From: an uncultured Spirochaetaceae bacterium | GTDB taxonomy: Bacteria; Spirochaetota; Spirochaetia; Sphaerochaetales; Sphaerochaetaceae | Direction: 5' to 3' | Length of the DNA: 56,099 bases | Assembly: GCA_944389975.1 (NCBI GenBank) | Contig: CALXOH010000022.1 | Coordinates: forward strand, 1 to 56,099 | Shown: in pieces, positions 47,408 through 56,099 of the stretch | Numbering within the stretch: position 1 is the stretch's first letter | Layout: every line of letters begins with the position of its first letter | Translations under genes and position numbers: made by a program | Notes under the pieces: model-generated | The model's database searches: none | Seen by the model: only the letters and a program-made list of their open reading frames with translations | What the model was told of the DNA's origin: nothing

Positions 47408-47432
47408 AAAAAATCCTCCTTGACCAGGAGGG
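47408..47432 (-). promoter_or_regulatory. Expression platform of the TPP riboswitch
   Basis: CCTCCT (47431-47426) pairs with AGGAGG (47420-47415), the thiD ribosome site, with a 5-nt loop, and six T follow directly (to 47408). The same hairpin could hide the ribosome site or end transcription. The riboswitch segment GACCAG can pair with CTGGTC in the loop, giving an alternative open form. Confidence 0.65.
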
Positions 47433-47440
47433 GTGTAAAT

Positions 47441-47513
47441 GCTCCCTACGCTGGTCTTGACCAACAGGTTCCAAGGGTCAGGTTCTACCTTCTCAGCTCC
47501 AAAGCTCCCCTGC
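47441..47513 (-). ncRNA. TPP riboswitch (THI element)
   Basis: The minus-strand RNA shows the conserved THI blocks in order: GGGGAGC at the start, GAGCTGAGA (pyrimidine sensor side), ACCCTTGGAACCTG, and CAGCGTAGGGA at the end. It sits 34 nt upstream of thiD, the first thiamine salvage gene, and should bind thiamine pyrophosphate to lower expression. Confidence 0.95.
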
Positions 47514-47554
47514 ATTGAACAAATCTTAACATCGTTGATATTATTTTCCAAGAA

Positions 47555-54643: not shown

Positions 54644-54675
54644 AGGCTACCCCCCCCCACAGTAGATTAAGTCAA
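54644..54675 (-). promoter_or_regulatory. Poly-G promoter of the first lipoprotein gene
   Basis: On the minus strand TTGACT (54675-54670) is followed by 20 nt, ending in nine G (54658-54650), and then by a poor -10 TAGCCT (54649-54644). With two or three fewer G the spacing would be the optimal 17-18. A further TATATC lies too far away. The present tract length may be an OFF or weak state. Confidence 0.5.
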
Positions 54676-55062: not shown

Positions 55063-55251
55063 TCAATTGACCTTAGGGCCTCGCTCACTCCATGAGATAT
55101 CTCCGGATTTGTACCTTCTGAGGTACTCACGAGTCGCAGAACTCGAAAGGCCCAGCAAGCTTGCCGTCTTCTTGTAGCCCACACCCTTTTGGAATAGGTA
55201 CAGGCACTCCCTACGCTTCTCCTGACTGATGCGAGCTTGTTTGGTATTCAC
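55063..55251 (-). pseudogene. Transposase-like helix-turn-helix fragment
   Basis: 62 residues from a GTG (55251): RRECLYLFQKGVGYKKTASLLGLSSSATREYLRRYKSGDISW is a single HTH like the N-terminus of IS3-type orfA transposases. No catalytic part follows; the DNA downstream is AT-rich and empty. The open frame continues upstream through the terminator of the lipoprotein gene, which is not real coding sequence. No ribosome site is seen. It may be a remnant or a domesticated small DNA-binding protein. Confidence 0.5.
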
Positions 55252-55257
55252 AAATAT

Positions 55258-55284
55258 CAAGAAAGGAGGACGTTTCCGCCCTCC
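55258..55284 (-). terminator. Intrinsic terminator after the second lipoprotein gene
   Basis: In minus-strand RNA GGAGGGCG and CGTCCTCC form an 8-bp stem (one G-U) with a GAAA loop, followed by TTTCTT. It lies about 27 nt after the stop. Confidence 0.82.
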
Positions 55285-55310
55285 CTGAAATCGACTTGCT
55301 GATTCAGTAA

Positions 55311-55871
55311 TCAAGCATCTTCACCAGAAGCATCAGCTGGTACATTCACTACCTTTATCTGCAGTTCAAGAGTGGCAGCTCCTTCCCTTGAGAGCTTGAT
55401 TTTTCCCGGCTCATCAGCCTTTGCCCAAAGAACAAATTCATCTTCCGCCATAGCCTTGTCCGCATCACCTGTTACGACAGCCTCATACTTATCCGTATCA
55501 CCTTGCCTAGCCTGCTCAAGTGTAGCGGAATCATTAATTTTCAAACTCTCATCATCTGCATATTCACCAACGGATATGAAAAGTGCGAACCACTGATGTT
55601 TTCCCTGAGCGGGATTGGTACTATTATACGGAGTCATTGAATCAACTTCAGCTTCAACAGTAATTACACCATCTTTATAGGTTGCAGACTTTACATGATC
55701 ATAGTTGCCTTGACATTCAGCTCCTTCCTGAAGTTCAGATGGGTTCGTGTGCTTTGCAATCCTTACTCCAATTCCAGTCCAATCCTCATAAGGGGCCTTT
55801 GTTTCGTTCTCACAGGAAGCGAAAGCGAATACCATGGCGAGAGCCAGAAGGGCGACCAACAATTTTCTCAT
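55311..55871 (-). CDS. Lipoprotein of unknown function with poly-G promoter
   Basis: A 186-residue predicted lipoprotein; MRKLLVALLALAMVFAFASC is the leader with Cys 20. The mature part has alternating strands (GVITVEAEV, HQWFALFISVGEY, KIKLSREGAATLELQIKV) like a beta-sandwich, and is acidic. No known domain recognised. GGAGG lies 7 nt before ATG 55871; a longer in-frame start would cover the promoter. It lies between the rRNA terminator and the HTH fragment. Confidence 0.82.
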   Translation of the reverse strand: MRKLLVALLALAMVFAFASCENETKAPYEDWTGIGVRIAKHTNPSELQEGAECQGNYDHVKSATYKDGVITVEAEVDSMTPYNSTNPAQGKHQWFALFISVGEYADDESLKINDSATLEQARQGDTDKYEAVVTGDADKAMAEDEFVLWAKADEPGKIKLSREGAATLELQIKVVNVPADASGEDA

Positions 55872-55906
55872 ACAAGTTCCTCCAAAGAAAATAAGTATGT
55901 ATAGGT

Positions 55907-55936
55907 AATATACCCCCCCCGGTAGCAATCCGTCAA
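55907..55936 (-). promoter_or_regulatory. Poly-G promoter of the second lipoprotein gene
   Basis: On the minus strand TTGACG (55936-55931), an 18-nt spacer and TATATT (55912-55907) make a near-consensus promoter. The last eight spacer bases (55920-55913) are all G. Slippage by one would change the spacing to 17 or 19, so the tract can tune or switch transcription. A normal leader with a ribosome site follows. Confidence 0.7.
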
Positions 55937-55956: not shown

Positions 55957-55982
55957 TAAAAAAAGCCCCGATGAGGAGCCTT
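55957..55982 (-). terminator. Terminator of the rRNA operon
   Basis: Downstream of 5S on the minus strand AGGCTCC and GGGGCTT (two G-U pairs) form a stem followed by TTTTTTT. Confidence 0.8.
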
Positions 55983-56009
55983 GTATGTGAATGGATTGGA
56001 GTCAATAAA

Positions 56010-56099
56010 ACTGGCAGCGACCTACTCTCCCGGGGACGGTGCCCCAGTACCATCGGCGCATGGGTGTTTCACTTCCGTGTTCGGGATGGGAACGGGTGT
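56010..56099 (-). rRNA. 5S ribosomal RNA, 3' part (partial)
   Basis: The minus strand reads CCCATCCCGAACACGGAAGT, GTGAAACACCCATGCGCCGATGG, and ends CCGGGAGAGTAGGTCGCTGCCAG, the conserved loop B-C and 3' arm of 5S rRNA. The 5' end lies beyond the right edge. Confidence 0.95.

Follow-up and report, generated by a model that had tools for sequence, protein, structure and literature searches.

The Vlp family of Mycoplasma hyorhinis combines conserved signal peptides with divergent protein bodies. In this organism several surface lipoprotein genes are each switched by a homopolymer in their own promoter (PMC10502178), and the vlp genes are clustered (PMC4198240). Homopolymeric tracts also occur at promoters of the spirochaete Treponema pallidum. 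At tp0126, which encodes an OmpW homologue, a poly-G tract lies between the -35 and -10 elements and the spacing optimum is 17 nt; at tprE, tprG, tprJ and tprL, poly-G tracts are located in the promoters of putative outer-membrane protein genes, and the tract of tprL, which varies between 7 and 11 in vivo, overlaps the -10 element and leaves the -35/-10 spacing unchanged (PMC7864442). At porA of Neisseria meningitidis, a poly-G tract between -10 and -35 controls transcription by its length (as described in PMC7864442).

In the window, which is the whole 56,099-nt stretch of DNA analysed here, the minus strand from 55936 to 55907 reads TTGACG-GATTGCTACCGGGGGGGG-TATATT, with a spacer of 18 nt whose final eight bases are G. 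The initial annotation had described this element exactly, coordinates included, and it placed the tract correctly, within the spacer of a promoter that precedes a lipoprotein gene: the ORF at 55871-55311 has a lipobox signal peptide (Table 1). The -35 and -10 elements were assigned by consensus, from sequence alone; TTGAC was set by the search pattern, and the sixth base is mostly A in relatives. Tracts equivalent to the G8 of the window mostly comprise 8-12 G in relatives.

Table 1. Features of the two poly-G lipoprotein loci in the window
Feature	Position	Strand	Remark
5S rRNA gene, 3' part	56009..56099	-	cut by contig end; just upstream of G8 promoter
Terminator-like hairpin	55962..55982	-	between 5S rRNA gene and G8 promoter
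-35 hexamer TTGACG	55931..55936	-	matches TTGACA at 5/6
G8 tract	55913..55920	-	last eight bases of 18-nt spacer
-10 hexamer TATATT	55907..55912	-	adjoins G8 tract without gap
Shine-Dalgarno sequence GGAGGA	55878..55883	-	direct reading
Lipoprotein gene, 186 aa	55311..55871	-	ORF, ATG at 55871; lipobox FASC; signal peptide MRKLLVALLALAMVFAFASC
-35 hexamer TTGACT	54670..54675	-	second lipoprotein gene
G9 tract	54650..54658	-	second promoter, 20-nt spacer
-10 hexamer TAGCCT	54644..54649	-	second promoter
Second lipoprotein gene, 203 aa	54001..54612	-	same signal peptide type, MRKLFVSLLAIFMVFAFASC

As at porA and tp0126, the homopolymer between the -35 and -10 elements of the window promoter is uninterrupted. 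The comparison with T. pallidum made in the initial annotation is apt, best so for tp0126, which is likewise a spirochaete envelope-protein promoter with poly-G between -35 and -10 and a tract length that sets the spacing (PMC7864442); the tpr genes named there are a looser parallel. tp0126 is a single gene with a spacing optimum of 17 nt, whereas here about ten putative promoters per genome serve a single class of lipoproteins, with spacers of mostly 18-20 nt. porA shares the position of the tract but is one porin gene from an unrelated phylum. The tpr genes share poly-G tracts in promoters, yet they encode Tpr porins and not small lipoproteins, and the tprL tract overlaps the -10 instead of lying in the spacer; the window genes encode lipoproteins of 186 and 203 aa and no Tpr porin. 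With Vlp the likeness lies in many lipoprotein genes, each with a homopolymer in its promoter (ten in the genome of the window). The present set would work like Vlp without being a member of it: the organism is unrelated, the tract is poly-G and not poly-A, and the genes are scattered, whereas the vlp genes are clustered (PMC4198240). The best-supported reading is a spacing change driven by slippage as at tp0126 and porA (PMC7864442), exerted over many lipoproteins together as in Vlp (PMC10502178).

The initial annotation was largely right but too narrow, as it overlooked both a second tract, at 1.2 kb from the first, and the wider set in the genome and the genus. This second tract belongs to the next gene on the minus strand with a lipoprotein signal, and the -10 of its promoter has the form TAGNCT, the commonest in the genus. 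The 186-aa lipoprotein has one paralogue in its own genome (66% identical) and homologues in 7 of the 47 other genus members (32-40% identity). In Pfam it has no family above threshold, and all matches of the 203-aa lipoprotein are sub-threshold. Structure prediction for the 186-aa protein from its sequence alone gave a mean pLDDT of 38.8 and is unusable. Between the two lipoprotein genes (55063-55314, minus strand) lies an 83-aa helix-turn-helix protein with HTH_23 over its cut-off, possibly a transposase fragment. Elsewhere in the window a TPP riboswitch (47426-47521, minus strand) is located immediately upstream of a ThiD-like gene within ORF 47551-46616.

Taken singly, the elements of the window promoter are not exceptional. 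Overlapping G8 words are expected 1.07 times per window, so a lone G8 run is unremarkable, and promoter-like sites in the window are no commoner than in shuffles. Genome-wide counts were obtained by pattern searches of the genome from which the window comes (1.95 Mb, 51 contigs). Of its 13 G runs that reach eight or more bases, ten stand in the order TTGAC, spacer, G8-10, TANNNT, followed 29-43 nt on by a lipoprotein start, and all ten genes encode a lipoprotein signal peptide. For the reversed control pattern this genome gave no match. The combination of -35, G tract and -10 is therefore far from chance. A second -10-like sequence, CATACT, about 14 nt past the tract in several of these loci was rejected, being absent from the genus consensus and too far from the -35.

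The BipA gene places the window genome among gut Sphaerochaetaceae-like spirochaetes. The arrangement was found at about 278 sites in 38 of the 48 genus genomes, with up to 15 per genome, against none for the reversed pattern; the poly-C version, used as orientation control, gave three sites in the same 48 genomes, where runs of at least eight G sum to about 650. Within the family but outside the genus, one genome has nine sites, and genomes outside the family have 0-2, as in the control. Named contigs with sites belong to Candidatus Ornithospirochaeta (two), Candidatus Aphodenecus (two) and Bullifex porci (one), the last a cultured pig isolate scored on the promoter pattern. The motif scan of viral contigs gave no match. 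On close reading of 70 sites in eight genomes, TANNNT directly follows the tract in 67, and a recognised lipoprotein lies downstream in 58; of the other sites, several are truncated where the contig stops or lead to exported proteins of another kind. Common flanks among the genus sites are ACC, ahead of the tract, and TAGNCT, behind it. The arrangement itself is certain.

The order 5S gene, terminator, promoter seen in the window is repeated at two other contig ends of the same genome, and three contigs that reach a 5S rRNA gene (that of the window, C3 and C2) each have a poly-G lipoprotein directly after the 5S. In many relatives, the distance from a 5S gene to the bipA that follows it ranges from a few hundred bases to a few kilobases, and among the bipA loci compared there is no run of at least eight G. 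The poly-G lipoproteins behind rRNA operons therefore look like later arrivals, judged from these comparisons, in agreement with the homologue search, which found relatives of the window lipoprotein in only seven of 47 other genus members.

Tract variation was compared between paralogous modules and between sister-species orthologues. Separate loci of one genome share up to 168 bases of identical promoter and signal-peptide sequence. In genome G018, two loci carry G10 and G9 (L154, L155); they share 50 bp before the tract and 118 bp after it without a difference and are unrelated further upstream. In G047 the tracts are G8 and G9 (L168, L170), and the identity extends over 45 bp upstream and 92 bp downstream; in G027, G9 at L177 stands against G10 at L180 and L181 with identical flanks. 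Sister-species orthologues (G042, G025) show G11/G9 and G10/G8, the following 50 bp being identical. Among the 11 within-genome pairs whose flanks match perfectly over 70 or more bases, which form three clusters and are not independent, seven differ in tract length. From these pairs and the sister orthologues, the tract thus appears to change faster than its flanks. The main caveat on tract lengths is that the genomes are draft assemblies, in which a homopolymer may be wrongly assembled where a repeat has broken the contig. The slipped-strand length change proposed in the initial annotation gains support to this extent, by comparison of equivalent tracts within identical flanks.

In the mechanism that we favour, the G8 tract would make the spacer of a sigma-70-type promoter hypermutable, with slipped-strand mispairing adding or removing Gs. 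Gains and losses would change the distance between -35 and -10 one base at a time and thereby alter transcription of the lipoprotein gene. About ten such promoters in the genome would each drive their own small lipoprotein, the signal peptides being related, so that the combination of lipoproteins expressed in a population would keep shifting. That slippage of a G tract in the promoter spacer tunes or switches a multigene lipoprotein set is considered quite probable, and phase variation of the poly-G lipoprotein genes is likely on the sequence comparisons above. We infer that the tracts slip in living cells, that their length affects transcription, with on and off lengths, and that the products are exposed at the surface. 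A mismatch-repair defect that raises slippage was considered and rejected, since MutS and MutL are both present; this counts against the favoured mechanism.

Some further observations count against such a switch. Although the clustering of -35/-10 distances at 18-20 (93 of 118 distinct sites, mode 19) favours the reading, a sharp peak at 19 instead of a spread could indicate a fixed functional length. Tract length likewise has a sharp mode, at G9. In favour of the switch, a shorter pre-tract part goes with a longer tract (Fisher p 0.0035; Spearman -0.23, p 0.014); length compensation between the two is suggestive only, since the variance permutation test of spacer compensation was not significant (p 0.21). 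Transcription continuing out of the rRNA operon might, in addition, make the G8 promoter of the window dispensable. The G also lies nearly always on the coding strand, a bias that a pure spacer would not require.

The peaks at G9 and 19 nt, the orientation bias and the common ACC and TAGNCT flanks would all suit a G run acting as a fixed element of the promoter or as the binding site of a regulator, recognised, for example, by a transcription factor or, immediately before the -10, by RNA polymerase. Such a run would define a lipoprotein regulon, and its length differences would be incidental. A precedent for a regulator exists at the tpr promoters, where a CRP homologue of T. pallidum acts jointly with poly-G length (PMC7864442). 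Nearly all tracts are pure G, however, and differ in length between identical promoters, and common descent of a promoter and signal-peptide module accounts equally well for orientation and flanks. This explanation is unlikely. The orientation bias and the 19-nt mode may reflect such common descent, or an additional role of the G run.

Descent of this kind could also mean that the tracts are hereditary baggage, copied along with the promoter and signal-peptide segment and varying neutrally without useful effect on expression. Identical modules amid unrelated surroundings and the three 5S-linked copies in the window genome would fit; yet the -35, tract and -10 persist while the sequence between -35 and tract is highly diverged among the 118 distinct sites, ten of the 13 G runs of the window genome are kept in promoter position, and another genome (G109) has a version with a 15-16 nt spacer. 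We regard neutral carriage as improbable, more so than a fixed element. That an ordinary promoter met a chance G run and that the tract differences are sequencing error is scarcely credible: a lone G8 run is expected about once per window and the assemblies are drafts, but the recurrence across the genome and the genus, against controls that stayed empty, already refutes coincidence as the cause of the arrangement itself.

Returning to slippage in the promoter spacer, a wider form of this reading can be put forward tentatively, as a possibility rather less likely than its negation. A portable module of poly-G promoter, ribosome site and lipoprotein signal peptide would have become attached to unrelated mature lipoproteins throughout the genus and would have spread, including to positions behind rRNA operons; spread of the module together with independent slippage would yield combinatorial surface variation, and the G run might in addition be an orientation-specific promoter element. 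The mechanism is known already. A search for phase variation or homopolymeric tracts in Sphaerochaetaceae or Sphaerochaeta found no papers, in literature that lay largely outside subscription journals, and the system appears to be undescribed for this lineage in the literature searched. If the slippage reading is true, promoter-tract phase variation would be one of the main principles by which surface composition is organised in a large group of gut spirochaetes, most of them uncultured, and the principle would extend outside the pathogens where it is known. The sequence signature lists candidate phase-variable genes for each genome, and existing metagenome reads can test them.

One poly-G lipoprotein (L140, 10250-10999, minus strand) carries a Pectate_lyase_5 putative adhesive domain, and in its 481-aa neighbour a domain of the window type is joined to a different C-terminal part. 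Three G9 runs make up the remainder of the runs of at least eight G in the window genome. The first (L147 2592-2600, G000:C7:22591-22599, plus strand) is followed by TAGCTC and by what may be a lipobox remnant (IFLTSCPGS); it is possibly a decayed poly-G lipoprotein locus that lacks a TTGAC -35. The second (L148 3113-3121, G000:C16:85612-85620, minus strand) lies within an intact ORF, coding GGG, whose product resembles a chromate transporter as judged by its sequence and not by a database match. The third (L149 3140-3148, G000:C18:71139-71147, minus strand) is located in a phage-like neighbourhood, at the overlap of two ORFs in different frames, one ParB-like and the other for an N6_N4 DNA methylase; the corresponding methylase of Streptococcus phage Javan117 forms the end of one 388-aa gene. 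From its sequence, this locus is a candidate phase-variable methyltransferase.
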